Virus record (IMG/VR): IMGVR_UViG_3300042473_000489
Span: 1 to 44,269 of that record
Reading direction: 5' to 3' (one strand)
Origin: a virus
Length of the DNA stretch: 44,269 bases
The notes under the pieces are model-generated. The model was not told the DNA's origin. It was given only the letters and a program-made list of their open reading frames with translations, and ran no database searches. The position numbers were made by a program, and so were the translations under genes. Position 1 is the first letter of the stretch. Each line of letters opens with the position of its first letter. This document shows, piece by piece, positions 4,073 through 39,334 of the stretch.

Positions 4073-4080
4073 TATTTATG
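4073..4080 (+). promoter_or_regulatory. Possible late promoter box (TATTTATG) before first adhesin gene
   Basis: CTATATTTATGA in the divergent gap differs at one position from the TATTTATA box seen before other virion genes in this window. It ends 18 bases before the ATG at 4099. Assigned only by similarity to those other boxes. Confidence 0.35.
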
Positions 4081-4098
4081 ATAATAACATTTCATTAA

Positions 4099-4611: not shown

Positions 4612-4643
4612 TTAAATGATAATAATTAAAATAAAAAAATAAT

Positions 4644-7208: not shown

Positions 7209-7209
7209 A

Positions 7210-9707: not shown

Positions 9708-9710
9708 ACT

Positions 9711-9718
9711 TATAAATA
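9711..9718 (-). promoter_or_regulatory. Possible late promoter box TATTTATA, 3 bases from ATG
   Basis: Minus-strand TATTTATA is followed by AGT and then the ATG at 9707. The same box-to-ATG arrangement occurs at 14049 and 35887. If used as a -7/-10 element, the transcript would be leaderless or nearly so. Confidence 0.45.
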
Positions 9719-9783
9719 TCACCATTAACACCATTTATTAAAAGTAAATGTCAATTATATTTTAATAAAATCAAACTTTAGAT

Positions 9784-9791
9784 TATTTATA
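9784..9791 (+). promoter_or_regulatory. Possible late promoter box TATTTATA
   Basis: Plus-strand TATTTATAG in the divergent gap between the 60-codon minus gene and the next adhesin gene, ending 19 bases before the ATG at 9811. The 103-base gap therefore carries an outward-facing TATTTATA box for each of the two divergent genes. Confidence 0.45.
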
Positions 9792-9810
9792 GTAAAATAA
9801 GAAATATAAA

Positions 9811-10476: not shown

Positions 10477-10485
10477 TATAACCAT

Positions 10486-12705: not shown

Positions 12706-12707
12706 TT

Positions 12708-14036: not shown

Positions 14037-14048
14037 TCAAAATTATAA

Positions 14049-14056
14049 TATTTATA
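14049..14056 (+). promoter_or_regulatory. Possible late promoter box TATTTATA, 4 bases from ATG
   Basis: Plus-strand TATTTATA is followed by CAGT and the ATG at 14061, in the 24-base gap between genes. The closeness to the start codon leaves no room for a ribosome binding site if this box starts transcription. Confidence 0.45.
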
Positions 14057-14060
14057 CAGT

Positions 14061-16478
14061 ATGGCATATATACTTAAAAATACATCGGGTTTAGTAAATA
14101 CAAGATTAACTGATACAGGTAGATTGAAACTGTCTCAAGGTAATTTTAACATTTCATATTTCCAAATTGGAGATAGTGAAGTGTCTTACAATACATTAGC
14201 AACCAATTACAATCAAACAAGAACAAACATTTTAGAACCTAATTTTAATTCACAAAATTCTGCTCAGGGACAAACTAATAAACAAAACATTAAGTATCCA
14301 TATTATGTAGATGGTACAAATGGCAATACTTACGGTATCCCATTTATGTCTTCTGAAGTCGCACCAATTTATAACACAGCAGCAATTAGAGGATTTTTCT
14401 CAGGTAATACTACGTTAAATACTTGGAGCGCAATTACAAGTAATTTGTACGTTATTAATTCAAATTATGTTGTTGATATGAATACCCTAACAGGTGGTAC
14501 AACAATAAAAATAATTTATTCAGGTTGTAACACAAATATTGTTAGACTACCAGCCAAAGGTGATTTTATCACCATTTATTATGATGGGAATGGAGCGACG
14601 GATTGTGGTTTAGCCGCAACACCTACAACACCCACACCAACACCAACACCAACTGTAACACCATCTTATGACGCTTGTGCGTTACCACTACCAACACCAA
14701 CACCATCGGCAACTTGTTGTGTAGTAACACCAACAGGGTGTACACCAACACCTCCACAACAATACGTAATGTCTATGAGTAGTTGTTATAGTATGTTAAC
14801 TTATAGAATTGTTGATATTTGTTTAGATGTTATCACATTAGATAGAGTTACACCTAATTTTTCATATATCGCATCAGGATGTTCATATTCAAGAATATTA
14901 GTTTATCCACCAAATATGACATCACTTTACGATAGTGTAACACCATTACAACATTGGAACCCTGACGTTATTAATTATGAATCTGTTTGTAATACAGACC
15001 AATTTGATGTTAAAGTTTGGAATATGAATATTCCCTGGTCAGAGAATCCTGCCGGATTATTTGACGACCAAAACATCGGATTTAAAAACTTTACATCCTC
15101 AACTTATTTAGGGACAAAAGAATACTTAGGGTATATGACAAGCAGTGGTCAAACATTTGTTGATAGTAACAAAAATGTAATTGACCCAACATATTATTCC
15201 GACACTTTTGGAAATAAAATTATAGTAAAACCTGAGGACCAAAAAGCTATCGCAATTATTCACTATACAAACCAAACTATAGACTTTTTCTATGGTGAAA
15301 AATTTGCTATGGAACCTTATAGTACATTAACACCTAATGATACAACAGGTGACGCAAGAAACTTTAAATTACACATTCCTTGGCTAATGTGGCACAAATC
15401 ACCAAATTGTTGTATAGGAGAAACATTTTATGTTGACCCACCTAACGATGAATTTGTTGATTCTAAATTATTAACACCATACTACATTCAATCAACTAAA
15501 AATACTGATATGAATGACCCCGGTATTCGTTACTATAATTTATGGGACACATATCCATCTAAAAATAATTTAGCACAACCAAATAGAGTTGGTAAGGTAT
15601 TCCCTGACCAAAAAATTATAGTAATTGATGATGATGAATTAGTTGCTGCATTATCTTACAAATCAAATCGTAACTGGACTTTACCTGCAGCAACAACATC
15701 ACTAATAACACCAAATACTTGTAACACTGAAGCAACATCTAACATAGGTGTTTTAACAACCCCTAATGAAAGTATGTATGTTTCGTATTTACTTACTAAT
15801 ACATCATCAGGGGCTACCAACTCATTACATTGTAATTACTATTCAAATATTGTTGGTCCTTTTAATGATTGTAACAATATTGGAGCACAAAACGTGGCAG
15901 TTAGATTCAACGGTGAATTTAATTGTTTAAATAAAGTAACTAACACAAATATACCTACAGGTTATTTAGCAGACACTTTCCAAATAATTTGTCAAAAAGT
16001 TACAGGTGACACCAGACCGGTATCTTCTGAATGGAGAATGATTGATTTTAGTAGTCAATTAACATCAACAAATGTTAATGGATATATCACACAATCAGGT
16101 CTTACAGGGAATACATTCGTCATCACTAATGATTTATATAATTCAGCAAGTGGTGATACGTATAACTTAAACGATTATATTGATTTACCAACCGGGACAA
16201 CATCGAACACTACACTTAATTTTGGTGATGAATATTATTTCTATGGTTCATTAGAAACTGACATTCAAGCAACCATTTATGAGATGAAATATAAAATAAA
16301 TCTTGGTCAAGCAGAGTTCCAAGCATCTTCAAATCCAAGTTGGTCAGCAAACACAAATTCATATATTAGTGAAATTGGTCTTTACGATGACGAAATGAAT
16401 CTTATGATTGTATCAAAGCTACAATCTCCTGTACTTAGACAGGGTATTCAACAGTTTTTAGTAAAATTTGATTTTTAA
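14061..16478 (+). CDS. Tail-collar/fibre-like protein with split collar domain and large insert
   Basis: An 805-residue protein. Its first 50 residues, LVNTRLTDTGRLKLSQGNFN followed by ISYFQIGDSEV, resemble the start of the P2-type tail-collar fibre domain (LTnaGl...iGDG). Its last 40 residues, YISEIGLYDDEMNLMIVSKL and following, resemble the end of that same domain (EiGLyD-xG-L-iav). The two halves are separated by about 700 residues, including a PTPT linker (about 185-233) and a Cys-containing mid-region. In P2-like tails this domain joins the fibre to the baseplate. The start is immediately preceded by a TATTTATA box, and the next gene (resolvase) begins 3 bases after its stop. The collar assignment is my reading of short motifs, so moderately sure; a structural role in the tail is likely. 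Confidence 0.7.
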   Translation: MAYILKNTSGLVNTRLTDTGRLKLSQGNFNISYFQIGDSEVSYNTLATNYNQTRTNILEPNFNSQNSAQGQTNKQNIKYPYYVDGTNGNTYGIPFMSSEVAPIYNTAAIRGFFSGNTTLNTWSAITSNLYVINSNYVVDMNTLTGGTTIKIIYSGCNTNIVRLPAKGDFITIYYDGNGATDCGLAATPTTPTPTPTPTVTPSYDACALPLPTPTPSATCCVVTPTGCTPTPPQQYVMSMSSCYSMLTYRIVDICLDVITLDRVTPNFSYIASGCSYSRILVYPPNMTSLYDSVTPLQHWNPDVINYESVCNTDQFDVKVWNMNIPWSENPAGLFDDQNIGFKNFTSSTYLGTKEYLGYMTSSGQTFVDSNKNVIDPTYYSDTFGNKIIVKPEDQKAIAIIHYTNQTIDFFYGEKFAMEPYSTLTPNDTTGDARNFKLHIPWLMWHKSPNCCIGETFYVDPPNDEFVDSKLLTPYYIQSTKNTDMNDPGIRYYNLWDTYPSKNNLAQPNRVGKVFPDQKIIVIDDDELVAALSYKSNRNWTLPAATTSLITPNTCNTEATSNIGVLTTPNESMYVSYLLTNTSSGATNSLHCNYYSNIVGPFNDCNNIGAQNVAVRFNGEFNCLNKVTNTNIPTGYLADTFQIICQKVTGDTRPVSSEWRMIDFSSQLTSTNVNGYITQSGLTGNTFVITNDLYNSASGDTYNLNDYIDLPTGTTSNTTLNFGDEYYFYGSLETDIQATIYEMKYKINLGQAEFQASSNPSWSANTNSYISEIGLYDDEMNLMIVSKLQSPVLRQGIQQFLVKFDF

Positions 16479-17082: not shown

Positions 17083-17110
17083 AAAAAACCCCCTTAATTG
17101 GGGGTTTTTT
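17083..17110. terminator. Bidirectional rho-independent terminator between convergent cassettes
   Basis: A perfect inverted repeat: six A, five C, loop TTAATT, five G, then seven T. It can fold with a G/C stem followed by a T run on either strand. It therefore ends the plus-strand cassette (resolvase stop at 17081) and the minus-strand operon, whose last gene stops at 17110. Confidence 0.92.
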
Positions 17111-20100
17111 TATTCTTTACAATTATTAGTTAAAACTAAAGTATTTCGTGCTTTACCACAATTAACTTTATACGAATATTGATAATCTTGAACAACACCA
17201 TAAATTGTGTTAGATACAGGGGTAAGGGCCTCACCTAAACTATCATTAGTTTGAATATCCATAACTAAATAATTATCTTGACCTATATAATCTACCATAA
17301 TTATTATAGTATCACCTTGATTCACACTATATACCTCAGAATAAGTTGTTATTACATTACCAACCCAAGAATAAAGAACTACAGTACCTGATGTAGTACC
17401 TAATAAAACTTTTCCATTTCCTTCAACTCTACATCTATTACTAAATTTAAAGTCTAACGGACATTTTAAAGCAATTGGGTTAGTTTTTATAGTATCAAGA
17501 CATTTTTCACAATCATATATCTCACCATCAATATTTGTAAAGAAATTAACATTACCCGAATCATATGTATTTACATACATACCTAAATATTGGTTTAAAG
17601 TTAATGTATTATTAATTAATTCCCAACAAGCTTTATTTTCTTTTCCATCAGTAAATAATATTGTATCACCTAATACCATTCCGTTTATTGCCAACACAGA
17701 TTGAAGAATCACGAGTGAGTCTCTATTACCACCACACTGTCTATAAGCATAATATGTTTTTAATGGAGATGGTGTCGGTGTTGATGTTAACGCAGGTGTT
17801 TGAGTTAACGTAGGTGTTTGAGTTAACGTAGGTGTTGGTGTTAATGTATTAGTTGGCGTTAATGTTAGTGTTGGTGTTAATGTTGGTGTTGGTGTATTTG
17901 TCGGAGTTAATGTGTTTGTAGGTGTTAATGTTGGTGTTGGAGTATTAGTTTGAGTTAATGTTGGTGTTGGCGTAACCGACGCACCCGGCGTTGGTGTTAA
18001 TGTTTGAGTCGGGGTATTAGTTTGTGTCAATGTTGGTGTTGGAGTAACCGACGCACCCGGCGTTGGTGTTAATGTTTGAGTTAACGTAGGTGTTGGTGTT
18101 AATGTATTAGTTGGCGTTAATGTTAGTGTTGGTGTTAATGTTGGTGTTGGTGTTAATGTTGGTGTTAATGTATTTGTCGGAGTTAATGTTGGTGTTGGGG
18201 TAGGTGAAGAACTTGGTACTGGTCCACAATATTCACAAGAAATATCATAGTTAATTGTTGTACTAACCGTTACTGATGTATTACGCAACGATTCAGGGTT
18301 ACAATTAGTTTTAATATAAATTGTGTTATTAGGAACATCAGGATAAGTTTCAACATTACCCACACCGATTTGTGGAGAACTTTCAATTAATGATTTAACC
18401 CAACCATAAAAATCCGCATCTGTTGGGTAATCATATAAATCATATCCTGTGTAAATTACACTAGACGTAACAAAATTCCCTACGGTAACATTAAGAGTAA
18501 AAACAGCATTATTTAATACACAATTTGTATATCCTGACGTTAAATCATAAAACCCTTCATTTAACATTTCTCTAGGTCCTGTTTTGACAATCACAGGATT
18601 TTCACCCAATGTTAAATTACCACTACAAACATTATAAGACCCTGAACCATTATAGGTATTATTACCTTCAACAACGATTTGTTTTGTTTTTGCGAAACCA
18701 TCCGCATCAACCACTCTAAGAGAGTATGTACCCGCAGATAAATTATTAACTGTCATACCAGTATCACCATTTGACCATATAAATTCAAAAGGTGGTTTAC
18801 CGTCTAAAACATACGCGGATATTTCACCATCCGAATTAACCGCAAACCCCTTACTCGATAAGTGAAAATCAACAGCCACCGAATTGTCAATTGTAAATGG
18901 TGATGATTGATTACATTTAGTACTGTCAATTACACTAGCAAGATAATTCCCTGAGGCTAAATTGTTAAAGGTATATGACATTACCGAAGTTGTGACAAAT
19001 TGTGAGTTAATACTATAAGTATATGGTGGTGTCCCCCCACTAGTAATATATAAAGTAACTCCTCCATTGTTCTCACCACCAGTTGTTCCGGTAATTGATG
19101 TTGTTAAACCAAATAAAACATCATTATTAATTGTATATGTACTTGAATAAGTACAAGGACCTAAATCTGTAACACTTAAAGTATAAACCCCTGATGACAA
19201 ATTTTCAAATCTCCAAACATTACTATTTATAATGTTTGTTGTAACATTACCATTAGAATCCGTTAAAGTGTATGTATATGGTGGAGTCCCACCTAATACT
19301 GTTATTGGCCCTAATATCCCTGACAAGTCATTACATTTTGAATTGGTTTTATTAACAAATACGCTTGATATACCTGCAGGGGTTAATAATGTTGTTGATG
19401 AAGTTGCTTTACATAAACCAGCGTCAGTTACTTCAACAGTAAACTCACCCGGTGCTAAACTTGTGAAAATAACTGTTCTATCAAAAGTAACAATAGATTC
19501 ACCATTAGAGGCTAAATAATAAAACGGTGCGGTACCATCTACGACTATCACCGTAACTTCACCGTCACTTGTAAAACAAGTTGGTTGAGTTACAAATAAT
19601 GAACCGATTGAAACCGGATTTACAACCGCAACGTCAGCACTTTTAGACACTCCACAACCACTATTATCAGTTACTGTTACACTATACGTTCCTGCGGTAA
19701 GACCCGTTAACGAATCAGCAGATTCTCCATTTGACCATAAATAACTATATGGTGGATTACCCGTTAAACCACTAATAAATATTTTACCTGAATTTGTTGT
19801 ACAACCAGCATCATTAACCACAAATAAATCATAATTTATTGTTGTTGAGGTTTTTACAATACAAGTTTCTGACATACCCGTACATCCGGCGCCATCATCC
19901 GCAATCACATAATACGTACCAGCACTTAATGATGTAAATTCTGCAACATTTGAATAAGGCGATGACGAATCAATAAACCCTAACGTATTTTCATATAACG
20001 AGAACGTAGCATTCCCATAAGAGTATGTTGTGGACGCAGTTATTGACCCGTTATTTAAACCACATAATGTATCTGTATGACTATCGATTGAAGTACAAGT

Positions 20101-20364
20101 ACCACTAGAAATTAAAAAATTTACAGGTAACACCGTATTTGGTAAACAACTATCAATTATGTTGAATGTATAAGTACCCGCACTTAAGAATATTTTTTCA
20201 TAAGTAGTTACATCAACACCAAGCGGTATTATATCCGTAATTGGTGTTAACCATTGTATTGTATACGGGGGTGAATCCCCATTTATATTAAGAGTAATCC
20301 CTCCCGCAAAAGAGTTAGTACAATCACCCGTTATACTAATATTATATGTTAAATTACACGCCAT
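17110..20364 (-). CDS. Giant adhesin with seven SprB-type repeats and long PTPT linker
   Basis: A 1084-residue protein. Residues 1 to about 600 comprise seven repeats of about 80 residues with the SprB pattern GG-(T/N)PPYTY-x-WSNG then [12 protein letters not shown]; examples are [18 protein letters not shown] and [16 protein letters not shown]. About 600-715 is a separate domain with paired cysteines ([10 protein letters not shown]). About 716-866 is a Thr/Pro/Leu linker made of TPTPTLT-type units with GASV interruptions. The remainder, to 1084, is a C-terminal beta-rich domain. It is the last gene of the baseplate operon, so a fibre or adhesin attached to the baseplate is the best guess. 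SprB repeats are known from flavobacterial gliding adhesins. No enzyme motif is present. The stop lies inside the shared terminator. Confidence 0.85.
17815..17895 (-). repeat. 81-bp perfect direct repeat, first copy
   Basis: Identical over 81 bases to 18073-18153, an offset of 258 bases (86 codons), so the reading frame is kept. It lies in the Thr/Pro linker of the SprB adhesin. Confidence 0.9.
17938..18081 (-). repeat. Tandem 72-bp duplication in PTPT linker
   Basis: Two adjacent 72-base units, 17938-18009 and 18010-18081, differ at five positions. Each encodes a 24-residue block containing the P-G-A-S-V interruption. The unit length is a multiple of three. Confidence 0.88.
18073..18153 (-). 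repeat. 81-bp perfect direct repeat, second copy
   Basis: Second copy of the repeat at 17815-17895. Recombination between the copies would delete or duplicate 86 codons in frame. Confidence 0.9.
18129..18165 (-). repeat. PTPT-linker DNA, inverted copy of 7501-7537
   Basis: The reverse complement matches 7501-7537 at 35 of 37 bases. It is the clearest inverted match I found by eye between the plus-strand and minus-strand adhesin cassettes. Confidence 0.85.
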
Positions 20365-20365
20365 T

Positions 20366-23300
20366 TTATGAGCAACTAATTATAAAGTTTATTCCTACAT
20401 CTATTTTTATAGTCCACCCTAAATCTTTATTAGCACAGTTTGTGTTAAATATTGTTACGGTTGTATAGTCTTCATTAAAATAATAATCAAGACCTCTTGG
20501 TAGTAAACCATCTAAAGAGTATCTTAAAGATGTCACCCATTTTTCATTTGTGGGTACACTATAAATTTGATTAACCGCAGAACCACTAAAGAACCAATCG
20601 TGAATTATTAAAACATCGTTGAATGTTACATCAACATACCATTGTGATGTAACACTAGTATTATCACAATTATCTAACTCATTATTTTTTATATAAGAAT
20701 TAATAACAGAATTTAAAACACCATTAAAATTAGATACCTTACCACCAAACGGATAAACTTTACATTCTTTTGATTGACGGGGACAATCGGTATTATATAT
20801 TGTGGTAGTTAATTCACACGGTCTACAAGGAACCGGTACAAATTGACAACCTCTTTGTCTTCTCCAAACAAATTTTTGTCTGTGAAAGATTGAATTTTCT
20901 AATTTAACACCTGTATTCCAAATAGTACTTGCCGGTATCATTTGTTCAACCAAACGAATCCAATAATCCCCCAAACCATCAACATATTGTGTCATAGTTT
21001 CATAGGTGAAATTATCATTTGCAATCCCTATAATGTTTTCAGATTCTAAGTATCTCCAATAAATTGATTGTAATGTTGGATAACCACTTGTTCCACCATC
21101 AGTGGCAAATTGTCTATTTCTAACATTAATCGTATTTTTCCAAAATGTCTGAGCAAATTCAAAGAATGATTTATTCTTGGGTTGTGGATTAATTACCGTC
21201 CAATCAATATCACCTTTACTAGGATATATTGAAACCGGATTAGGGTCGCAATATGTTGGTGGTACATAATTTAAACCTTCATTCGGTATTGGGTAATTAT
21301 ATTGATTTGACATAGCCCAAACATCATATACCAATCCCTGACTTGGATTTAAAAACAAATCAACATTTTTAACATTGATTACTAAATTATCGTTATCTGT
21401 ATTATAAAAAGAATTAAATCCTCCATCAAAATTAGACCTAGTACCTACTTCAGTATTAACCCAACTTTTATTATTATCGATTGCCGGTCTTAAGTTAAAC
21501 CCTAATGTGGTATACGGTAATTGTCTATAAACATTTAAAAAATCTTGACCATAACTAAATGGCGTTAATTTAGTTTGATAGTTAGGATTAGACCCCGTGA
21601 ATACACTAGTTGTTAAATCAACTTGTTCTAAAGACCTATGTTTAGGTGTCGATTCAAACCAACCACTACCCATTTGAAAGAAATAAGAATCTGTGTTTGC
21701 CGGAGATTTTGGATAACCAAAATTATCAATAGGATAATTTGAAATGGTCACATTAGAGTCACTTAATGATGTACTTGTTGTGAATCCCGTATACCCACTT
21801 CCTTGAATTGTGAAAACATATGTTGGGTCTAAAACAGGAACACTTTTTGAATATGTACCTCCCGAAATATTAGCAAATTGAGTGTTAAACTCATTTATAT
21901 TAATTTTTTGGTCGGCTAAATAAATGTATTCATTAAATTCAACTAAAGCGTCCGGAGCACCAATCATTCTCATTAATGTTTCAATTGATTTTCTAGTCCC
22001 TTTAGATTTGAATAAATAAGCCGAGTTAAGTATTAAATTATTGTAATAATTATAGTTTAACTCATCCGGTGTTTGAGATTGTGAAACACCCGCAAATGAC
22101 GAACTATCGTTATTTTTTTGTCCAAAAACTGAGTTTAAAAAATCATCATTAGAAATTGGTGTAATATTTGTCGCCCAACCTAATGTTTGCGCTAAGTTTT
22201 TTAATAATTGAGATGGAATATCATTCCCTGAATTATAATTCACAGAATTCATATATGCCAAAGCATTTATAAATTTTTTAGTCTCATCAAAACTTCTACC
22301 ATATATTTGTAAAACTTTTTGAACCTTTTGGTCAACAGTGTCAAATTCTCTAAACGAATCTGTGGTTAAGAATCTTGATACAAGATTTGTTTGGTAACTA
22401 TCAAAAGACGCACTAATATCATTTAATGTTGTCAAATAAACCGTAAATGAATTTGTTAAAATATCTAAATTCCAACTACCCATTAAAGGCCAAGTAACAT
22501 TTTCATTATTAATATAATACGAACCATCTTCACTTTCCATTGGGACTTTAAATGTAGCTGTATATATTGGTGATATATTTCTATTTAATAAAAATCGTTG
22601 CACCTCATCTAAATCAACACTAAAGACACGATTAACTTCGTGGTCATTAGGTCTAACTATAATATCATCAGTAGAACTTGTTTGTCCTGAAAATGGATTA
22701 CCATTTACAAAAATCTTAAGAGTACCCGAAGAAGTTGAATTAGTTGGGACAATTTGTTTAACGTCATACCCAACACCATTATAATATAATGAATACTTAG
22801 CGTATTGAGTTGTCATATTACGTAACTCTGATACTTGTATTTCTCTTAATTGTAAATTTCTTGTTGCATTAACAGAAAAATCAATATCAAAAGGGTTTCT
22901 AATTCTACTTACAATTAAATCAAAATTAGTCTCATTTGTTATCTGATTATAAACTATATTTGTTGCGGTATCACCAGTCTTATAACTTTCATCCATAAAA
23001 GTAACTTCCAAAGCCGCGGGAAATTTACTAATAATGGTCTCAACAGATGTTGAAATTCTTTTAACCATTGACCCATAAGTCGTAAAATTCGTAACTTCGG
23101 TTAAATCAAAATTAGGATAAACTTTAAAGTTGTTTTCAAATATCGCTCTTGATTGGTCAACACTCGAAAGTCCTAAACCTTCTAAATTCACCGGACTTGA
23201 AAATGTTCCCGTTGAAAACGTTCTATTAACTTTTTCACTTAAAGCCGTAGTGAATTCAAAATTACCTTGCGTTAATCCACCTCCAGCAATTAGTTGAAAC

Positions 23301-23374
23301 CCAACTAAATTGTCTGAAAACGTACCCGCACCTGTTGCCGGTTGTGGTGGACAAGTAAAATTTTGATTTGCCAT
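20366..23374 (-). CDS. Large baseplate/tail protein with P2 gpI-like segment
   Basis: A 1002-residue protein. Residues about 340-490 contain [15 protein letters not shown], then a helical stretch, then [20 protein letters not shown] and [10 protein letters not shown]. This resembles the core of P2 tail protein I, where a wall of helices leads to hr-KGT-x-x-aI-x-x-l-x-x-lG. Protein I bridges baseplate wedge and tail fibre in P2-like phages, which fits the position here after the W/gp25 and J/gp6 homologues in the same operon. The rest of the protein is beta-rich, with a cysteine-rich patch near the end ([18 protein letters not shown], about 830-850). The ATG shares its A with the upstream stop (TAATG), indicating coupling. 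The gpI-like assignment is moderately sure; the large flanking domains are unrecognised. Confidence 0.72.
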
Positions 23375-28190: not shown

Positions 28191-31100
28191 TTAATCTACT
28201 ATAATTTCTGTATTAATCCACTTACCTTTAAATCTATCAAAAGATGACGCTCCTCGTTTCAACCCAAAATAAAAATGGAATGGTGCACCAACAGTAACTA
28301 ACTGTTTATCAACAGTTTGTGTATTTTGCGACCAAGCCGATGTTGCAGCAATTAAATCTCCAGCACCATCCACCGCATAAATTAAACCTTTATCATCAAC
28401 AATTGTAATCCCATAATTTCTAAAATATCTTGAGTTAGCTTCTAATCTATCTAATGATTGATATTTAGACGAATATATATAACCTGCATCCCCCTCGGCA
28501 AACCACTCATTTCCATCCGTTCCAAAAATACTTGAACCATTTTCTATCTTCCATTGTGATAACGGGACTTCTTGAGAATAGATTGGAAAATTACTAAGTG
28601 AGCACCCTTGATTACTAACTAAACCTGTTGGGTCAATTATAGTTCTCTTTGGTGTAAGAAAATCTCTAGTTTGAGTATCCGATGAAAAGAAAATACCAAT
28701 TAAACCATCACACCCAATATATATCGGACTTTGTTTTGGTGCCGGTTCGTCCGGATAATTTGTTGATTGGAACGCAGCGACACCTAATTCAGAACTAATA
28801 GATAGTAATTGAGAGTAATCCGCATCAAATTTTAAATTAGTTCTCGTGTTAAAATATTGCATAATATTTAAACCAAGTATGTTCTCTATAAAATCATTAT
28901 TTAAAAATCGACTAATAATAAATAAATTAAGTATCTCATCAACTTGAGAAAAAGAGGATGAATCCAATTTATTAACAATATACCCGTCATATTCATCAGA
29001 CATTACAATTTCTTGTAAAAAAATACTTCTTGGTCCTAAATCTATTATTGTTGTCGGATATTTAATGGAAGTAACAAATTGTTTATTATCAGCATCATAA
29101 CCGGCACATCGATAATAAAAGTTTTTACTACTCGTGTGTCGAATAACAACTTCTGTTGGATATCTGTATATTGGGGAATTTGGTGTTGGAGATGTTGGAG
29201 ACGTAAAACCAATTGCATCATTTTTAAATGACATTACATATAAATTACCATTAACCCAATTATTACTAAATGTATGTGAGAAAACATTTCTACAAGCACC
29301 TAACATAACCATATTTCTAGCTATCCATTCTGACATTAAAGCCCAATCATTTAATAAAGAAAGAAACACAGTCGTAATTAATTTATAACATCCTTTACTA
29401 AATATTGTTTTACCTAAAAACCTAGAACAACTTCCTCGACCAATTTTAATTATCGCGTTATTTACACCATTACGGGGAAGACAATCTTTACCATAACACT
29501 CTAAGTTCGCAGAACCATTACACGTAAATGTTTCGAATAACCCATTGATATTTTTTTGATTTTTTAAGTCCTCCGAAGTATCTAGATTAACACCTGAACC
29601 CTGTGAGCCTGTTGAACCTACTGTTGATGTAATTCCCACAACACCCTTATCAGGTATTAGATAAGCTTGGAAGTTGTAATTTTTTTGTAATACCCAAGAA
29701 TTACAACAAAATTCTAGCGGTACTGTTGAGGTCGGTAATCTATCACCTCTCATTATCTTTACTTTACCTGATGAACCCGTACTAAAATTTAAAGTATTTC
29801 CTGTTGTATTATATGTTGGTGAATAATAATAAGATTGTATTGTATCAGTCGCATTAGCAACCGGATTAGCACTAATATTACGCCATCTCCTCCATCCACA
29901 ATTTCTTCCTCTATCACAGTTATGACTCGCAGCTTCAAAATAACCAAACATTGCCATAATCGAATTACCTTCAACAATCTCATTAGGTATATAACCTTGA
30001 TTGTTATTTATTAAATCATATTGTGTTCCATTAAATAGAAGACGATATAAAATACCATTAGTACCACAACCACCACAACCTCCAGTCAAATAACTATTTC
30101 CACCAAAATTAAATGTTCTAGTAAATAAGTTATTCGGAGAAACTGAAATCCCTAGACTGTTAGTTACATTGGCAACACCAAAACTATTAACACGAGGATT
30201 AGACGTAGCGCCTACATTAACACAACCAGGTGTAAAAGAACCTGACCTTGTATCTAACGATGAATAATAACTAATTAAATTAGACTCAAACCCACTATAA
30301 CCCGCAGATAAAAACGTCCAAGTTAAACCGGTGGTCATATCTTCATTATATGTTATAGTATTCCCTGAAACATCATTTGCTTGAGGAGTAAATAAATATG
30401 AATCATAATACAACTTATTACCCGTATAAGCATCAGCACCAAGAGCATCTCTGGTTGGAACACCATTTATTGTAATTGAGGGATAATCCGTTTTTAAATG
30501 ACTAATATTTTTAAACCCTTTCTGAATAGGGATATTCATCCTTGTCATTGCTGTAAAAGTTACCGCATCTTCATTAGAAAATCCAAAAAGTTTACCTAAA
30601 CCATATTCAATATTAATTTTATCCGTATAGGGGTCAACACCTCTATTTAATATAACAACACCTATAGACGCACTATTCTTAATCGAATCTATTGGTCTTA
30701 AATAATAAGGTGCTCTGTCAGTCGTCCCATTATCAAGGTCATTATTATATTTAGTATTATAAAATGTTGTTACATTCCTAATATATCTTTCATTTAATGA
30801 ACCGGCAATTGGTGTAGTACTACACATTGAGGTAAATGCACTATACGTCATTCCAGTGATTACTTGGAAATACTCAACATCTGTTGGAAATCGATAAATT
30901 TCACTATACTTAGTATTACCTGTAAGAGTAATATTATAAGTCGAATTAGGCCCTGAAACAGTTGAATTACCGTCAAAACTAGCATAAGATACCGGCACTG
31001 TTATTGCTCCCGTAGATGTAGTCCCTGTTAATGGAGGAACCAAACCAGTTGTTCCCGTAATTGCATAATTACCCGCATAATTAAGAATTGGACTATTAAT

Positions 31101-33509
31101 ATTAGGGTCTTTACTATATGATGGATTTTGAAACGCAATCATTTGACCTGAAACATATTTTTTAAGTGTCGCCTTATCACAAAGAATTACAATAGTATTA
31201 TCATAATGTTTCTTTCCGGGGTTACTTTGTGGTTGATAGGTTACTCTAACTCTATTTACACTGCCACCAGGATTATTTGGCCCTCCATCAAAATATTTCG
31301 CCTTAACATTAAATAAATTAATTCTATCGGCTATCGGTAGTCCTGTTGTTATCCAAGTATATGAAGGAAGACCTTGTTCAACAGCAGGATATGGAACCCC
31401 ATATCCAGGATTTCCTGTTTCCCCATCAAAATATCTACCCGTAAATTCATAAGTAAGTGCTAATCGTCTTGCTGAACCTAAAGGATATGAGTATGGTGTA
31501 CCATTATAAACAGTAGTTCCGGTTTTTGGCATTTTCCAAGGACTTAACGTAGATACTAATAAAATAGGGTTACTTATACTAAGCGCTGATTTTGATAACT
31601 CATCTCGAGATATTGTTGGACAAGGAACAATATCTTCATTACCCGAACTTAAATCTTTATCACCATTATCTTCATCCGGATTTTCACTAACAGCATCTCC
31701 TTGTTTACAATCACACATATTACAATCAGGGTACGTTAATATAGGTACCGCAATACCACTTAAATTAATTTTCATTAATTGAAGAAGAATATAAACACAC
31801 AACGCTGCAAACAATAAGTAAGTCGCCCCTAATAGTAGATTACCCGGAATGGTAACAACACCAAAACCAACCCCAATAGACGCCGCAAAATGCTGTATAG
31901 AAACTATAAAATAATAAATTGATAGAAATAAGAAAAATAATCTTAATACCCACACAATAAAATAAACAATATGTAAAAGAAGTATTATCGCATAAAATAT
32001 TGGTGTTAATATTATACTTAAAAATGAAAATAACACATAAAAGAAATCAAACCTAAAATAACCGTCATTTGTTGGATATCGGTTATTTCCACTTTCACAC
32101 ACATCATCTAATATGTTTTTAATACCTGTAAATCTTTGATATGAACCTCTTCTATATTCATCAATAAATTGTGAAACAGTATAAACTTTATTATATTGCA
32201 TCATATAAAATCTATCTTTACAATCAATAGCTTCTTGTATCATTTCCGGATAACTAGTATCATCTCCATAATCATCCCAATCAAGACTAAACGCGTATGA
32301 TTTTTGTTGGAGTTGTGAGTCAGTATCAACCCAATCTTTAATATTTGGAACTAAATAATTGGCTCTTTTAGTTGATGCCGAGGCCGATGGAGATTGAGCC
32401 CATTTAATTTTAAATCTATACTTACCTTTTGTCGGAATCCCTTTTTCTGGGTCAGGAGATAACACCTGCTCCCCAAATTCATTAGTTATGTAATAATCCA
32501 AATTCATTGGGACATCTACCATCCAAGTCCCATTTTCATCAATAATTGTTCCTCCACCTTCTAAACCATATGATTCCAAAATAGGTCTCCCAATAGAATC
32601 TTCCTGTATTGTTTGTCTAATTGCCAATATTTCACCCGGACCTGTTGTTACATTACATAAAAAACCAGAACTTCTTGTTGGTTTACCACCACTACTTGAT
32701 TTAATTGCGTTACTATCAGAATCTGAAATCATCGACCCCATAAAAATAGCCGTAGGTCGTATATCAATATTTGCCTCTCCTGTTAAATCAAAATCCGTTC
32801 TAGTGATACCTAAATTACATATCTCAGGTTGTCCCCATAATGGTTCTATTTCAATAGTTCTTTTAATACTAACTATTTGAGGTAATTCGCCTAAGTTGGT
32901 TGAGGACCTAAATTTGGTCCCATCAACTTGATTTTCAGTTGCAACACCCATTCTAATTAAATCTTGAGGAGATAATGAAAATTCACCAATATCAGACAAA
33001 TCAATATCTACCACAATTGTATGAGAACCAACAGGAACCCCAAAAATCATATAATCACCACTAGAATTGGTAACAGCGTTATATTTGTAGTACTTATCAT
33101 AAATGTCACCAAGAACGGGACTTAATAACACATCTCTACGAGTAAAAAAAGTACCGGTCGGTACGTGAGCACTATAAGAAGGTTTATAAGGTAATAGATT
33201 ATATCTATACCCATCATCATTAACATCATACAAATTAGTGTATGGATATATATTTGAGGTAACAGGGTCTTCTTTATCAACCGCATCTAAAGGAATAAAG
33301 ATTGATACTTTAGCGTTTGGAAGACCAAAACCATTGTTTACACTAACTCTACCCACAACAACACCATAATCGGCACATTGACGTGTGTAGATATCACTTT
33401 GAAGGATTTTTAAGGATAGAATTTCTAAATACTCGAACTCTTGGTCAATCATCACCTTTAATGAGGTGTCTACACCGACTTTAGTTCTTATTCTATAAGA
33501 ATTTGACAT
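28191..33509 (-). CDS. 1772-residue baseplate-operon protein with internal transmembrane cluster
   Basis: The largest gene of the window. Residues about 45-175 look like a transthyretin/carboxypeptidase-regulatory-like beta sandwich (VVGRVSVNNGFGLPNAKVSI ... SSGDYMIFGVPVGSHTIVVD). Residues about 485-580 contain several closely spaced hydrophobic helices (FFYVLFSFLSIILTPIFYAI, then ILLLHIVYFIVWVLRLFFLF and, after a short break, LLLGATYLLFAALCVYILLQ), enough for three or four membrane passes. Right after is a cysteine cluster, C-N-M-C-D-C (596-601), and an acidic linker. The remaining 1100 residues are beta-rich with further cysteine groups (GGCGGCG, NCDRGRNCGW). It follows the gp6-like gene. 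A virion protein with an internal membrane segment suggests a role in membrane penetration or a pore during DNA entry, which is inference. Upstream, a TATTTATT box sits in a 72-base AT-rich gap. Confidence 0.78.
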   Translation of the reverse strand: MSNSYRIRTKVGVDTSLKVMIDQEFEYLEILSLKILQSDIYTRQCADYGVVVGRVSVNNGFGLPNAKVSIFIPLDAVDKEDPVTSNIYPYTNLYDVNDDGYRYNLLPYKPSYSAHVPTGTFFTRRDVLLSPVLGDIYDKYYKYNAVTNSSGDYMIFGVPVGSHTIVVDIDLSDIGEFSLSPQDLIRMGVATENQVDGTKFRSSTNLGELPQIVSIKRTIEIEPLWGQPEICNLGITRTDFDLTGEANIDIRPTAIFMGSMISDSDSNAIKSSSGGKPTRSSGFLCNVTTGPGEILAIRQTIQEDSIGRPILESYGLEGGGTIIDENGTWMVDVPMNLDYYITNEFGEQVLSPDPEKGIPTKGKYRFKIKWAQSPSASASTKRANYLVPNIKDWVDTDSQLQQKSYAFSLDWDDYGDDTSYPEMIQEAIDCKDRFYMMQYNKVYTVSQFIDEYRRGSYQRFTGIKNILDDVCESGNNRYPTNDGYFRFDFFYVLFSFLSIILTPIFYAIILLLHIVYFIVWVLRLFFLFLSIYYFIVSIQHFAASIGVGFGVVTIPGNLLLGATYLLFAALCVYILLQLMKINLSGIAVPILTYPDCNMCDCKQGDAVSENPDEDNGDKDLSSGNEDIVPCPTISRDELSKSALSISNPILLVSTLSPWKMPKTGTTVYNGTPYSYPLGSARRLALTYEFTGRYFDGETGNPGYGVPYPAVEQGLPSYTWITTGLPIADRINLFNVKAKYFDGGPNNPGGSVNRVRVTYQPQSNPGKKHYDNTIVILCDKATLKKYVSGQMIAFQNPSYSKDPNINSPILNYAGNYAITGTTGLVPPLTGTTSTGAITVPVSYASFDGNSTVSGPNSTYNITLTGNTKYSEIYRFPTDVEYFQVITGMTYSAFTSMCSTTPIAGSLNERYIRNVTTFYNTKYNNDLDNGTTDRAPYYLRPIDSIKNSASIGVVILNRGVDPYTDKINIEYGLGKLFGFSNEDAVTFTAMTRMNIPIQKGFKNISHLKTDYPSITINGVPTRDALGADAYTGNKLYYDSYLFTPQANDVSGNTITYNEDMTTGLTWTFLSAGYSGFESNLISYYSSLDTRSGSFTPGCVNVGATSNPRVNSFGVANVTNSLGISVSPNNLFTRTFNFGGNSYLTGGCGGCGTNGILYRLLFNGTQYDLINNNQGYIPNEIVEGNSIMAMFGYFEAASHNCDRGRNCGWRRWRNISANPVANATDTIQSYYYSPTYNTTGNTLNFSTGSSGKVKIMRGDRLPTSTVPLEFCCNSWVLQKNYNFQAYLIPDKGVVGITSTVGSTGSQGSGVNLDTSEDLKNQKNINGLFETFTCNGSANLECYGKDCLPRNGVNNAIIKIGRGSCSRFLGKTIFSKGCYKLITTVFLSLLNDWALMSEWIARNMVMLGACRNVFSHTFSNNWVNGNLYVMSFKNDAIGFTSPTSPTPNSPIYRYPTEVVIRHTSSKNFYYRCAGYDADNKQFVTSIKYPTTIIDLGPRSIFLQEIVMSDEYDGYIVNKLDSSSFSQVDEILNLFIISRFLNNDFIENILGLNIMQYFNTRTNLKFDADYSQLLSISSELGVAAFQSTNYPDEPAPKQSPIYIGCDGLIGIFFSSDTQTRDFLTPKRTIIDPTGLVSNQGCSLSNFPIYSQEVPLSQWKIENGSSIFGTDGNEWFAEGDAGYIYSSKYQSLDRLEANSRYFRNYGITIVDDKGLIYAVDGAGDLIAATSAWSQNTQTVDKQLVTVGAPFHFYFGLKRGASSFDRFKGKWINTEIIVD

Positions 33510-33581: not shown

Positions 33582-35420
33582 TTATGAGAAATTAACTGTT
33601 TTAAGATTTTTAACTCTAATATTAATATCTTTGTTAGAATATCTAATTTGATAACTTTGGGTTGGTTCCGCATAAATGGTTTCATCAATTAATTCAATTT
33701 GTCTTGTTGTTGGGTCAGAATATCTTTGTGACGTTTGAGATGATGAATATTGACCACCAACGTTATTAAAGAATTGTACGTCAGATATAGTTATAACCCC
33801 ATTTTCATTTTGTAATAATCTTTTTAAATCTGAAACGTTAACGTTTTGACCCATTTGTCTATTTGACGGACTAAAATAATCAGAAACCACCGTTATTAAT
33901 TGAGATATAACAGTTCCTTGATTTTGAGAGTTATCCAAAACAACATCCACATTTACACTTAAATCAATTACGTTAGCACTTTGAACTGAAACGTAATCAT
34001 TTATCATTCGATAATTGGATAAGTAATTTGCAACATTATTTTTTAAAGTGTTTGAAACAACCTCTGTTAATGCTCCGGATTCATCATACGATAACATCTG
34101 TACAATGATTTTATTGTTGTTTTCTGTAATTGAAACTTTTGCGGGAGCTCCATATTGAGACGGCATCGTTCTAATAATTGACTCATAGTCATTAACCGTA
34201 ACCGCTCTATTTTGAGAAGAAAAATTATAAGAAACTAAATTTCTTACTTCTTCCGTTGTTGGGAAGTCAGCTCCACCTATCGCTGCCACAACGTTTGTAC
34301 ATCTTAATGAGTTAACTACTGTCGTATTCATACTCTCAGAAGGACCATTAACAAAAAATGATATTGTACCTACTTGAGTAATAGTATTAACACCTAAGTT
34401 ACTTCCTGTACCACCACCAACTCTATATTGAACAAATAGTGTTGTATTTGCTTTCAACGTACTGCCTAACCCTAAATTATTTGAGTATTTGTTTAAATTT
34501 AACATAAAACCATTTGCCGCGAATTCTCTTAATTGTTCATCTGCAGATTGATTACCCCCGCCAAATGTCATTTTTAAAAACCCTTCAGGTGTGAATTCCG
34601 AAATAAATTTATTACTTGTCTGTACGTATTTTCCAACTTTAATACCGGGACTATCCGATACTTTTGTCGGGTCTTCCACAAATACTCGGTCTTCCGCTAA
34701 TGCTTGAACCTCATACCATTTATTATCAGTACCTAAAAATTCTTGAGATGAAGGTACATTACTATATTGTGTCCCGTCTTTTAATAAAACTCCGGTAATA
34801 CCTAATACATTTTTTTCAGGTAAAAACAATTCATAAAAAGGTTTAACATCGTTTGGTGTAACAACTTTTTTAAATACTTTAGTCAACCCGTTAACAACAG
34901 TTTCTCTCTTAGTTATAGTGTAATTTAATAACTTATTATTTGAATCAAAATTTGGTATTTTTAATCTATTTGGAAATCCTTCAGAATTAATCGGTGACGC
35001 GAAATCAATTTCATATACTGTTTCAAAAACTTGTCCTGCTCCATTAAATTGAGAACCTCTTCTCAATACCCCACAATAACTTAAATCTTCTTTATCACCA
35101 TAAGCCGGTACTGTGATTGAAAAGTCAACTAAAGAAACTGATGGTCTCATTCCCGGTATTTTTAATCCATAAGTTTTTGCAATGTTAAATACTGATGACC
35201 TTTGTTGAGCATATTGTAATACTGTTTCTTGGATACTTCTATCAATATTAAATTGTAAGTTATCTGTTACCGCAGCATTAAGGTCTAATAAAACCGAGAA
35301 TACTGACGCGTCATTAAAATTCTGAACAGTTTCAGGATAATAAGTTTTAGTAAAATTTATAAGTTCCGTTCTTATTGATTGGAAATCTCTAGTTGTATAT
35401 GAAATCTTTTTATTAGCCAT
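33582..35420 (-). CDS. Baseplate wedge protein, T4 gp6 / P2 J-like
   Basis: A 612-residue protein close in length to T4 gp6 (about 660). The N-terminus ISYTTRDFQSIRTELINFTK with NDASVFSVLLDLNAAVTDNL is the usual start of the gp6/J family. The family hallmark VQYRVGGGTGSNLGVNTI is present near residue 330, and NRAVTVNDYESIIRTMPSQY near 410 is the second conserved block. In the virion it forms the wedge ring that links the baseplate hub to the periphery of a contractile tail. The ATG is 4 bases after the gp25-like stop. Contractile-tail gene order W/gp25 then J/gp6 is kept. Confidence 0.92.
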   Translation of the reverse strand: MANKKISYTTRDFQSIRTELINFTKTYYPETVQNFNDASVFSVLLDLNAAVTDNLQFNIDRSIQETVLQYAQQRSSVFNIAKTYGLKIPGMRPSVSLVDFSITVPAYGDKEDLSYCGVLRRGSQFNGAGQVFETVYEIDFASPINSEGFPNRLKIPNFDSNNKLLNYTITKRETVVNGLTKVFKKVVTPNDVKPFYELFLPEKNVLGITGVLLKDGTQYSNVPSSQEFLGTDNKWYEVQALAEDRVFVEDPTKVSDSPGIKVGKYVQTSNKFISEFTPEGFLKMTFGGGNQSADEQLREFAANGFMLNLNKYSNNLGLGSTLKANTTLFVQYRVGGGTGSNLGVNTITQVGTISFFVNGPSESMNTTVVNSLRCTNVVAAIGGADFPTTEEVRNLVSYNFSSQNRAVTVNDYESIIRTMPSQYGAPAKVSITENNNKIIVQMLSYDESGALTEVVSNTLKNNVANYLSNYRMINDYVSVQSANVIDLSVNVDVVLDNSQNQGTVISQLITVVSDYFSPSNRQMGQNVNVSDLKRLLQNENGVITISDVQFFNNVGGQYSSSQTSQRYSDPTTRQIELIDETIYAEPTQSYQIRYSNKDINIRVKNLKTVNFS

Positions 35421-35424: not shown

Positions 35425-35883
35425 TTATATATTAATTATTACAAAATCACTAGAATTAAATACGTCATCTGTAATAACATAATCAATTCTAACTTTAGCG
35501 GTATGTTCTAATTGAGCAATACCAGGTACTCTAAAAACTCTATCATTTTCACCATTAATATAAGACCCTTTATCCTCTTGACCATCTGACGCCGCAGTTA
35601 TATTAATACTTGTAAGTTTTAAATTTGGCATATATAGGTCAACAGCATCACGTATTTCAGATTCTATTTGTGAAAACGTAGGTGCGTCTAATGGGTCGAA
35701 AAGAAATTCATATAATCTTGTTCCAAAATCCGGTAAATAATATCTTGTACCTTTTCTTGTTAACAAAAGATGTATTAAATTATTTCTAATTTCTTTTTCC
35801 GTTGTGTTTGATAAATCTAAATATTTCCCCTCAAAAGAATCTCTGAAAGGAAAAGTTAAACCGTATGTTGTTCCATCTGCCAT
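35425..35883 (-). CDS. Baseplate wedge protein, T4 gp25 / P2 W-like (lysozyme-like fold)
   Basis: A 152-residue protein with the gp25 signature: EKEIRNNLIHLLLTRKGTRY followed by LPDFGTRLYEFLFDPLD. T4 gp25 is about 130 residues and sits with gp6 in the wedge and sheath-initiation complex of contractile tails. I place the start at the ATG at 35883 (MADGTTYGLTFPF). An upstream TTG at 35928 would run through the promoter-like boxes and is not likely. The ATG is preceded three bases upstream by TATTTATA, with a second TATTTATA 27 bases further up, so this gene probably heads the late tail operon. Confidence 0.93.
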   Translation of the reverse strand: MADGTTYGLTFPFRDSFEGKYLDLSNTTEKEIRNNLIHLLLTRKGTRYYLPDFGTRLYEFLFDPLDAPTFSQIESEIRDAVDLYMPNLKLTSINITAASDGQEDKGSYINGENDRVFRVPGIAQLEHTAKVRIDYVITDDVFNSSDFVIINI

Positions 35884-35886
35884 AAC

Positions 35887-35894
35887 TATAAATA
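35887..35894 (-). promoter_or_regulatory. Possible late promoter box TATTTATA, 3 bases from gp25 ATG
   Basis: Minus-strand ACTATATTTATAG is followed by TT and ATG. It sits between the nrdA terminator and the gp25-like gene, exactly where a late promoter for the tail operon is needed. Confidence 0.5.
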
Positions 35895-35913
35895 TAGTGT
35901 CGTCACTATTTTT

Positions 35914-35921
35914 TATAAATA
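35914..35921 (-). promoter_or_regulatory. Second TATTTATA box upstream of gp25
   Basis: Minus-strand TATTTATA, 27 bases upstream of the first box and 14 bases downstream of the terminator hairpin. Transcripts from here would have a leader of about 25 bases. Confidence 0.4.
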
Positions 35922-35934
35922 CCCCCAAAATAAA

Positions 35935-35967: not shown

Positions 35968-38382
35968 TTAAGAACCACATCCGAAACATTCAAATTCCGT
36001 ATCTGTTGGTTTTTGTGTTAAATCAACTGTTGGTTTTTCAATCGGTTTTGATTGACCAACTTTTGAGATATCAACCGCTAAGTGTTTAGCTCCGGTTGAT
36101 ATCGCCTTTGTTCTAACATAATAACAAAGAGTTTTCAATCCTTTACCCCAAGAATGGAAGTGTGATGACGAAATCTTTGATAATGTTGGGTTAGACATAT
36201 AGATATTCATTGATTGTGATTGGTCAATGAATGGTGCTCTATCGGCTGCCATATCAATAAGTTCTCTTTGAGATATCTCCCAAATTGTTTTGTATTTTGG
36301 AATTAAATGTTCAATTCTTTTAACTTTTTTATTGTAATTCTTATCTTCTTGGTCAAGATAATTATTAAAGTTAATATTTTGAATTGACCCTTCATTCATA
36401 ATGATTTCATTTTTCAAATCTTCAGACCAAATACCTATTTTCTCAAAATCACTAATTAAGTATTTATTAACAATTAAAATTTCTCCCCCAACTACACGAC
36501 GATTAAATAATGCCGAGTGAGCCGGTTCTGTCATTTCAAATGAACCTGTAATCTTAGCAGAAGACGCAACTGGCATCTGAGCCGTGAATAACGAATTACA
36601 AACCCCGTGATTGGATACTTCTAACTTAAGTGAGTCCCAATCCCACATTCTTCCTAATCCTTCGTAATCTAATCCCCACATATCAAATTGGAATATACCT
36701 TTTGACATTGGTGACCCTTTGAAGAATTCATATGGTTTGTATTCACCTGATTTACATAATTCCATACTTTCGGTGATTGCCGCGAAGTAGATTGTTTCAA
36801 AAATTTCTTTGTTTAATTGTTTTGCCTCTTCAGATGTAAAGATATAATCCATTAAGAAAAATACGTCAGCAAGACCTTGAGTTCCAATTGCAATTGCTCT
36901 TTGTTCTAAACCACCTTTTCTACCTTGTTCGGTTGAATAACTATTGATGTCAACAACTTTGTTAAGTGCTCTAACAACCTTTCTAACTTCACTATAAAGT
37001 AATTTGAAATCAAACTCACCTTTAACAATAAAGTTTTTCAATACCATAGATGATAATGTACAGATTGCTGTAGTATTCTCATCAGTATATTGGTAAATCT
37101 CATTACATAAGTTAGATTGTTTAATCACCCCAATGTTTTGATGGTTAGTTTTTCTATTCGCACTATCTTTAGAACATAAGTAAGGAACTCCGGTTTCAAC
37201 CTGAGATTCAATAATTTTATTCCAAATTGTTTGGGCTTTCACTTTTTTACCAAGACCAAGTTCAACTGCTTTGTTGTAGTTTGATTCATACTCATCACCA
37301 TAAGTTTCCTGTAATGGTTTGATACCCGCCTTTTTAATGTCGTTAGGGCAGAACAAATACCAATCAGAATTATTCTTAACCGCTTCCATAAAGTTGTCTG
37401 GTAACCAAACTGATGTAAATAAATCTTTAGCTCTTAACTCTTCAGCCCCTGTGTTCTTTTTAATTTCAAGTAAATCAATGATGTCTTTATGCCAAGGTTC
37501 AATGTAGATAGCTGCACTACCCGGTCTTCTTCCTTGTTGATTAAAGAAACGTAATGATTCATTAACAATTTTAAGGTATTTCAATAAACCACCCGCAAAC
37601 CCACCTGATGAGTTAATACGACTTTCTTTACTACGAATGTTAGACATACATAATCCAATACCAGCAGCATCAGATGAATAAGTTGAAATATCATTTAATG
37701 TTTGTAACAAACCTTCTCTTGAATCCCCGTGATTGTATTTCAATACACAAGACGCTAGTTGAGGAGTTTTAGTTCCCGCGTTAATCATAATCGGTGTCGC
37801 AGGAGATATAACTTGATTTGATAATGATTGATAATACTCAACCGCTTGTTCAAATGATTTAGTAACCCATAAAGCCACTCTCATATACATATGTTGAGGT
37901 CTTTCAATTACTCTACCTTCAGGATTTTTTAACAAATACATTTCTTGTAATGATTTCCACGCAAAATAATCAAAATTGTAATCATTCTCGTGATTAATTA
38001 CAGAATCAATATTTTCAGGACCATATTGTTCGATAGTTTCCATTAACTTATCGTTAATAATACCGTCAACGTGTAATGTGTGCATTGTGTTACAGAAACT
38101 TTCATCAGTTTCTTTATGATACGCAGAAATAGCAACAGATGATGCTAATCTTGAGTAGTCGTGATGACTTCCGGTATATGCTGCAGCAATCTCATAAACT
38201 AACTTATCCAACTCTTTGGTTGTAATAACACCCTCTGTTGGAACTGATGTAATCACCTTAATGAACACCTCATCAGCATTTACATTTAATCCTCTTGCCG
38301 CTCGTTTAACTCTATTATAAATTTTTTGGGGGTTGAACGAAACTTCGTCCCCCCCTCTTTTTCTTATCTTTAATGACATCAT
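35968..38382 (-). CDS. nrdA: Ribonucleotide reductase class Ia large subunit
   Basis: An 804-residue alpha subunit that reduces ribonucleotides to deoxyribonucleotides for phage DNA synthesis, together with NrdB encoded just upstream. An N-terminal ATP-cone regulatory domain is visible (SLKIRKRGGDEVSFNPQKIY to about residue 95). The catalytic core shows QLASC (first active cysteine, about 211), NLCNEI (about 425) and CTLSSM. The C-terminus is ECFGCGS with the C-x-x-C redox pair (Cys799, Cys802) that is re-reduced by thioredoxin or glutaredoxin. Full length for the class. The start is one of two adjacent ATGs, one base after the nrdB stop; a terminator follows. The gene order nrdB-nrdA is reversed relative to many operons. 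Confidence 0.96.
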   Translation of the reverse strand: MMSLKIRKRGGDEVSFNPQKIYNRVKRAARGLNVNADEVFIKVITSVPTEGVITTKELDKLVYEIAAAYTGSHHDYSRLASSVAISAYHKETDESFCNTMHTLHVDGIINDKLMETIEQYGPENIDSVINHENDYNFDYFAWKSLQEMYLLKNPEGRVIERPQHMYMRVALWVTKSFEQAVEYYQSLSNQVISPATPIMINAGTKTPQLASCVLKYNHGDSREGLLQTLNDISTYSSDAAGIGLCMSNIRSKESRINSSGGFAGGLLKYLKIVNESLRFFNQQGRRPGSAAIYIEPWHKDIIDLLEIKKNTGAEELRAKDLFTSVWLPDNFMEAVKNNSDWYLFCPNDIKKAGIKPLQETYGDEYESNYNKAVELGLGKKVKAQTIWNKIIESQVETGVPYLCSKDSANRKTNHQNIGVIKQSNLCNEIYQYTDENTTAICTLSSMVLKNFIVKGEFDFKLLYSEVRKVVRALNKVVDINSYSTEQGRKGGLEQRAIAIGTQGLADVFFLMDYIFTSEEAKQLNKEIFETIYFAAITESMELCKSGEYKPYEFFKGSPMSKGIFQFDMWGLDYEGLGRMWDWDSLKLEVSNHGVCNSLFTAQMPVASSAKITGSFEMTEPAHSALFNRRVVGGEILIVNKYLISDFEKIGIWSEDLKNEIIMNEGSIQNINFNNYLDQEDKNYNKKVKRIEHLIPKYKTIWEISQRELIDMAADRAPFIDQSQSMNIYMSNPTLSKISSSHFHSWGKGLKTLCYYVRTKAISTGAKHLAVDISKVGQSKPIEKPTVDLTQKPTDTEFECFGCGS

Positions 38383-38383
38383 A

Positions 38384-39334
38384 TTAAAAATCGTCTGTAA
38401 ATGTTAATGACTCGCCCAATTTAGCTTTTTGATACTCCATAGTTCTTGATTCAAAAAAGTTTCCTTTAGTCTCAACAGCAATTTGTTCCATAAACTTAAA
38501 TGGTTGTTCTACGTTAAATTGTTTTTTACAACCAAATTTAACTAATAAACCATCAGTAACAAATTCAAGATATTGTTTCATCAAGTTTGAGTTCATACCA
38601 ATTAAAGATACTGGTAATGATTCTGTAATAAATTCTTTTTCAATTTCTAACGCAGATAGTAAGATTTCTTTAATTCTTTTCTCCGTTGGTTTGTTCTCAA
38701 CGTGATTATTAATCAAATGGATAGCAAAATCACAATGTAAGTTCTCATCTTTAAAGATTAATGAATTAGCATTACATAATCCTTGCATAATACCTCTTGA
38801 TTTCATCCAAAAGATTGAACAGAATGAACCTGAAAAAAAGATTCCTTCCACCGCAGCAAAAGCGACTAATCTTTCTTGAAAAGAAGAGTTTTCAATCCAA
38901 TCAAGAGCCCATTTAGCTTTCTTTTGAACCGCAGGTAATCTATCAATTGCGTGGAAACATTCGTCTTTCTCTGTCTCATCAGACACATATGTGTCAATCA
39001 ATAATGAATACATTAAAGAGTGAATGTTCTCCATCATAATTTGGAATCCGTAAAAGAACTTTGCTTCAGCATATTGAACCTCTTTTAAGAAATTCTCAGC
39101 TAAGTTTTCATTCACTATACCATCAGACGCTGCGAAGAACGCCAATATGTTTTTAAGGAAAAATCTTTCATTATCCGACAGGTTTTCCCAATCTCTAATA
39201 TCATTAGATAAATCTACTTCTTCTGCCGTCCAAAAAGCTGCTTGATGTTGTTTATAAAATTCCCATATGTCGTTATGTTCGATAGGGAAGATAACGAATC
39301 TGTCATTGTTTGGTTCTAATATTTTTTCTTTCAT
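38384..39334 (-). CDS. nrdB: Ribonucleotide reductase class Ia small subunit
   Basis: A 316-residue beta subunit carrying the di-iron tyrosyl-radical site. Ligands are visible: Asp71 (AASDGIV), Glu102 and His105 with the radical Tyr109 ([12 protein letters not shown]), Glu163 (AAVEGIFF), and Glu197 and His200 (KDENLH). The sequence style, especially [17 protein letters not shown] and [11 protein letters not shown], is closer to the eukaryotic/Bacteroidota-type R2 than to E. coli R2. The ATG lies one base after the helicase stop and the TAA is followed one base later by nrdA, so the two subunits are coupled. All key residues are retained, so it is probably active. Confidence 0.96.

Follow-up and report, generated by a model that had tools for sequence, protein, structure and literature searches.

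A hydrophobic block with a conserved and an exchanged part in a giant protein beside the baseplate wedge gene of large contractile-tailed phages

The window analysed here is a 44,269-base IMG/VR virus record, taken at its full length. Its minus strand carries a tail operon in which the gene for a gp25-like protein (35425..35928; hhalign prob 97 against immuto gp113, a gp25-type protein) precedes that for a gp6-like baseplate wedge protein of 612 aa (33582..35420), which lies directly upstream of the ORF of a giant protein of 1772 aa, P0001 (28191..33509). The gp6-like gene was recognised by Baseplate_J above its Pfam cut-off, by PHROG 219 (baseplate wedge, E 6.6e-25) and by hhalign against immuto gp6 (prob 100). 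As the initial annotation had described, the 1772-aa protein comes right after this gene, its ORF starting 72 bp past it. Further along the same strand are genes for a 1002-aa protein (20366..23374) and for a 1084-aa protein with SprB repeats (17110-20364, E 1.7e-23), SprB being a Bacteroidota adhesin repeat. Large proteins with TPTPTP-type repeats, which we take to be possible tail-surface proteins, are encoded on the opposite strand (4099-16478, plus). Ribonucleotide reductase genes adjoin the baseplate operon in the window (35968-39334, minus; presumably NrdA/NrdB) and in two rumen loci, where they are of the anaerobic NrdG type (L127, 6644-7135; L176, 3674-4171).

The gene order recurs among relatives. 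Aquatic loci repeat gp25, gp6 and the giant protein, followed by proteins of ~600, ~280, ~390, 302 and ~1000 aa, and in the two rumen loci a baseplate wedge (gp6-type) gene again precedes the giant protein. A subset of aquatic relatives (L015, L018, L019, L021, L029, L055-L059 and others) has an extra ORF of ~292-309 aa between gp6 and the giant protein, always at the same place; the copy in L013 (3062-3991, 309 aa) gave weak alpha/beta-hydrolase matches, all under the Pfam cut-off. The gp6 and gp25 genes of the window, together with a tail sheath in nine of ten large related records, place these phages among those with contractile tails.

P0001 belongs to a dark family. No family in Pfam or PHROGs scored above cut-off, comparison with the sequences of solved structures gave no convincing match, and tblastn with five different family members as query returned no match among 50,697 phage records. 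In IMG/VR, at least 498 stretches encode relatives. They come from uncultured giant phages that occur in lakes, in the sea and in the rumen, the rumen phages reaching up to 412 kb; a third, mixed group stands beside an aquatic and a rumen clade, and a few relatives lie on contigs of bacterial MAGs. Where checked, the relatives adjoin gp6 and belong to contractile-tail phages. Ribosomal protein S21 is encoded in 4 of 10 large related records, and phages carrying bS21 are predicted to infect freshwater Bacteroidetes (PMC9723584). Both S21 and the SprB repeats fit Bacteroidota as the likely hosts of P0001 phages. We infer a virion location for P0001 from its operon position; it is probably an accessory component of the contractile tail, giant and specific to its lineage of large Bacteroidota phages, with a place at the baseplate.

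The place of P0001 beside gp6 in the operon does not establish it as a baseplate wedge protein. We rejected P0001 as the T4 gp7 / P2 gpI wedge protein: it reached prob 0.1 against gp7-type profiles, and the A3 profile had no match to gp7 of immuto or T4. When the profile of every neighbour was set against the proteins at the gp7 position in immuto, Mel-JY01 and LR756508, the 1002-aa protein was the sole one to match (prob 96, E 4.4e-9, with a KSKGT-type motif). This protein, whose identity comes from the profile comparison, Pfam and PHROGs giving it no name, is thus the gp7 / P2 gpI-type orthologue. The Tail_P2_I domain (PF09684) was found in none of ten related records.

The hydrophobic block of P0001 had been placed at residues 485-580 (31770-32057), and this position proved exact. 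Residues 486-592 hold only four D/E/K/R in 107, and 73% are I/L/V/F/M/W/Y/A/C. Hydropathy was judged against 2000 shuffles of P0001's own composition. The best 19-aa window scores 2.68 versus a shuffle mean of 1.90 (SD 0.26, z 3.0), which is mildly unusual only and too weak as evidence, and long windows were used instead. The best 40-aa window reaches 2.41 versus 1.14 in shuffles (z 6.5) and the best 95-aa window 1.88 versus 0.57 (SD 0.14, z 9.5), with 1.17 as the highest of the 2000 shuffles. No other complete ORF in the window approaches these values, the phage's own gp6 included, and in a 322-kb relative (G002) the homologue holds the strongest 40-aa block among 369 ORFs. The three or four membrane spans suggested earlier are an upper bound, since a rough insertion-energy scan gives two strong windows (504-522 and 558-576) and AlphaFold predicts two helices, 489-544 and 555-580, with pLDDT mostly 72-92. 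The first helix is 56 uninterrupted residues long and exceeds one simple span. Overall confidence of the model is modest, and its fold does not discriminate a membrane segment from a buried core.

Around the block, the protein divides into three regions. The conserved N-terminal module (residues 1-470; 32100..33509, minus) is beta-rich and transthyretin/carboxypeptidase-regulatory-like (80-row alignment A2, AF2); its top Foldseek match is 3qec (E 5e-4), it resembles transthyretin/CNA-B-like sandwiches, and it has a weak CarboxypepD_reg match below the Pfam cut-off. A middle region (606-1389; 29343..31694, minus) is clade-specific, being absent or much shorter in rumen relatives, and the W-x-N-G-x-L motif accordingly lies at median residue 1388 in aquatic versus 605 in rumen relatives. 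The C-terminal module (1390-1772; 28194..29342, minus) is conserved and carries NNWVNG and FYFGL motifs. Mean pLDDT is 66 for residues 1-660 (80 rows) and 74 for residues 605-1772, and the latter had no fold match below E 0.001 in PDB or BFVD. Tape measure proteins are long helical proteins. P0001 shares with them hydrophobic, membrane-like segments, as judged by hydropathy and the insertion scan, but fails as a mostly helical, coiled rod: outside 489-580 its predicted secondary structure is mainly beta or coil.

Four near-invariant cysteines bracket the block. Cys471 (32097..32099, minus) precedes it, and the C-x2-C-x-C cluster CNMCDC at residues 596-601 (31707..31724, minus) follows it, just as the initial annotation had reported. 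In the 80-row alignment, C471, C596 and C599 are each present in 80/80 rows, C601 in 78/80 and His513, within the block, in 79/80. The C..C.C pattern is kept by 106 of the 109 aquatic relatives versus 1 of 80 rumen relatives, 24 of which have P-x-C-type remnants. AlphaFold left the cluster unresolved. With one cysteine before the block and three after it, a shared site would hold both ends together, and such a four-Cys site would imply an even number of helices.

The block is widely retained. The aquatic alignment, made up of the query and 108 loci with near-duplicates among them, shows it at one position in 109/109 sequences; it is likewise present there in 80/80 relatives of the rumen-type clade and in 73 of the 74 third-group relatives of sufficient length, this group sharing two contigs with the rumen set. 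Its length (~45-140 aa) and sequence change among the clades, the stretch common to all relatives being ~40 residues only, and the rough insertion scan makes aquatic blocks stronger than those of the rumen and third clades. Homologues lacking the block had been named as the finding that would speak against a membrane role. Counted over the three divergent clades, it is retained by 262 relatives whose length allows a judgement, but three distant relatives (L126, L129, L213) are without it, and the block is therefore inessential to the superfamily as a whole. On the tree, gain and loss amount to two changes, with the block-less rows on long, unsure branches.

Within the block, two parts evolve differently. 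Block A (residues 485-523; 31941..32057, minus) is a conserved hydrophobic helix or hairpin with Pro503 and the near-invariant His513; charged residues are scarce in it family-wide. The dN/dS of Block A is ~0.08-0.15 when close relatives of the window are compared, which indicates strong purifying selection. Block B (residues 524-582; 31764..31940, minus) is also hydrophobic, and varies in length and sequence. Its dN/dS ranges from ~0.06 to 0.8 against the same relatives, and its identity falls to 36% where the N-terminal module is 90% identical. It is among the fastest-changing segments of P0001 and the least identical one in 17 of 35 close pairs, although these pairs are not independent.

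The pattern is clearest in one pair of relatives, L271 and L272. Most of their shared 17 kb is 95-100% identical, with two marked drops only. The 1400-aa P0001 homologues have 96-100% aa identity except at residues ~535-655, where 30-codon windows drop to 33% aa and 58% nt. The second drop (L271 ~4500-5100) falls towards the C-terminus of a 694-aa protein without family (ORF 3144-5228). The same hot spot was found in L093/L094, L065/L082, P0001/L004, L015/L018, L174/L180 and L231/L234, so that pairs from the rumen clade and the third group show it at this position too; it is absent from L011/L054 and L105/L112. Because nucleotide identity is also low in the Block B segment, allele exchange is indicated rather than point mutation. 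Near-identical phages carry unrelated versions of Block B, exchanged as a cassette. A diversity-generating retroelement is an unlikely source of the variation, with many indels and no clear adenine bias. The variability could reflect relaxed constraint plus recombination rather than selection.

Insertion into the host membrane, as put forward in the initial annotation, is a reasonable reading that the conserved Block A and the hypervariable Block B support, while we found no evidence for the other role proposed there, a DNA channel. The reading we hold most likely, at about even odds, is that the block enters a host membrane as DNA is injected, its tip coming into contact with a variable partner from the host or from a defence system. 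More specifically, a hydrophobic helical segment flanked by two soluble beta-rich regions would have its ends held together, perhaps by the four-Cys site (C471, C596, C599, C601). The segment would be shielded in the virion until a shape change of the baseplate frees it; the conserved Block A would then enter the host membrane, and the hypervariable Block B would carry the tip, whose contact would be a membrane protein of the host or a defence acting at injection. We favour a membrane and a variable partner because the hydrophobic run is long, because three clades retain it although its sequence turns over, and because it is split into a conserved and a hypervariable part. In T4, a baseplate protein stays at the outer surface, and for P0001 to reach the inner membrane would therefore require an unusual arrangement.

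T4 also supplies an argument for the strongest competing explanation, which we consider unlikely: that the block forms a helical core that is always buried, its helices covered by six-fold baseplate neighbours or partners and touching no membrane. The GenBank note for T4 gene 7 (L053 5061-8159) predicts an integral membrane domain at the C-terminus, and gp7 reaches a hydropathy of 2.07 at residues 879-907; yet gp7 is a subunit of a baseplate wedge assembled from soluble parts (PMC3004832), so hydropathy alone can mislead. Contractile baseplates moreover hold helix-turn-helix core bundles, as where the XM1 gp17-type wedge protein joins the gp6-type protein (gp16/gp17, PMC10457771), and AlphaFold places the two P0001 helices close in sequence. 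Against a buried core, the gp7 segment is a single 29-residue stretch with a 40-aa hydropathy of 0.83 versus 2.41 in P0001, and the phage's own gp6 has no such block. The wild variation of Block B, in sequence as well as in length, would be odd for a core, and Block A is poor in charged residues throughout the family. As the initial annotation held, such a block is out of the ordinary in a baseplate protein: among 24 T4 virion proteins, none has a 40-aa block above 1.27, where the three clades studied here have medians of 2.41, 1.77 and 1.85, and 19-aa hydropathy exceeds 2.0 in gp7 and gp29 only. Neither residues 605-1772 nor the family as a whole gave profile support for the gp7 stretch as a homologue of the block; the gp7 stretch probably belongs to a soluble portion of the gpI-type domain.

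It is rather improbable that, while tails are being assembled, the block instead anchors P0001 in the infected cell's inner membrane, in the manner of a scaffold platform. The membrane helix of Cis13 in the Anabaena thylakoid system is needed for anchoring (PMC8894136), haloarchaeal systems have a six-helix anchor candidate (PMC11566945), and with an even number of spans the two soluble regions would lie on the same side, but such an anchor leaves the cassette exchange of Block B unexplained. Least probable of all is a late-operon gene for a non-virion product, a giant membrane protein of the infected cell that, for example, alters its surface or excludes phages; the lack of a structural match for residues 605-1772 speaks for it, and a hypervariable part would suit an exclusion factor too, but in the aquatic loci examined the gene keeps its place, flanked by gp6 and by other conserved genes of the operon, and P0001 has no N-terminal signal or leader helix, the block being internal.

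To our knowledge, how DNA of giant contractile-tail phages passes the inner membrane is poorly known, and the P0001 lineages are without match in the searched cultured-phage collection. A conserved membrane-like segment with an exchangeable tip gives a concrete candidate in a named, syntenic protein, and it points to a site at which conflict between phage and host may show up in metagenomic data. As a tentative generalisation, which we hold to be somewhat doubtful, a baseplate-borne membrane-penetrating hairpin outside the tape measure protein may be widespread in giant Bacteroidota phages. Its conserved part would enter the host membrane, and its tip, a hot spot of recombination, would determine the inner-membrane partner or evade defences that act at injection; at membrane level, this would add a second determinant of specificity to the tail fibres.

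P0001 resembles several known systems in part. Like T4 gp7, P2 gpI and XM1 gp17 it adjoins gp6 in the operon, and T4 gp7 is likewise large, one hydrophobic stretch of gp7 being noted as a predicted membrane domain; P0001 lacks profile similarity to these proteins, however, and their true orthologue is the 1002-aa protein. Cis13 of the Anabaena tCIS is a baseplate-bound, tail-fibre-like protein of a contractile machine and has a membrane helix (PMC8894136), but this is one C-terminal helix in a trimer that anchors the machine in its own producer cell, whereas in P0001, a phage protein, the block is internal and has several helices. The lambda-type tape measure protein (gpH) shares hydrophobic segments with P0001 and is linked to the inner membrane at injection; P0001 differs in being predicted beta-rich, in lying right after gp6 and in having no sequence relation. 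The tape measure proteins of lambdoid phages contain a locally divergent region that tracks the inner-membrane partner ManYZ and the SNIPE defence, and a mutation overlapping that region also goes with ManYZ and SNIPE (PMC13190303). These partner- and defence-linked local divergent regions are the nearest published parallel to Block B.
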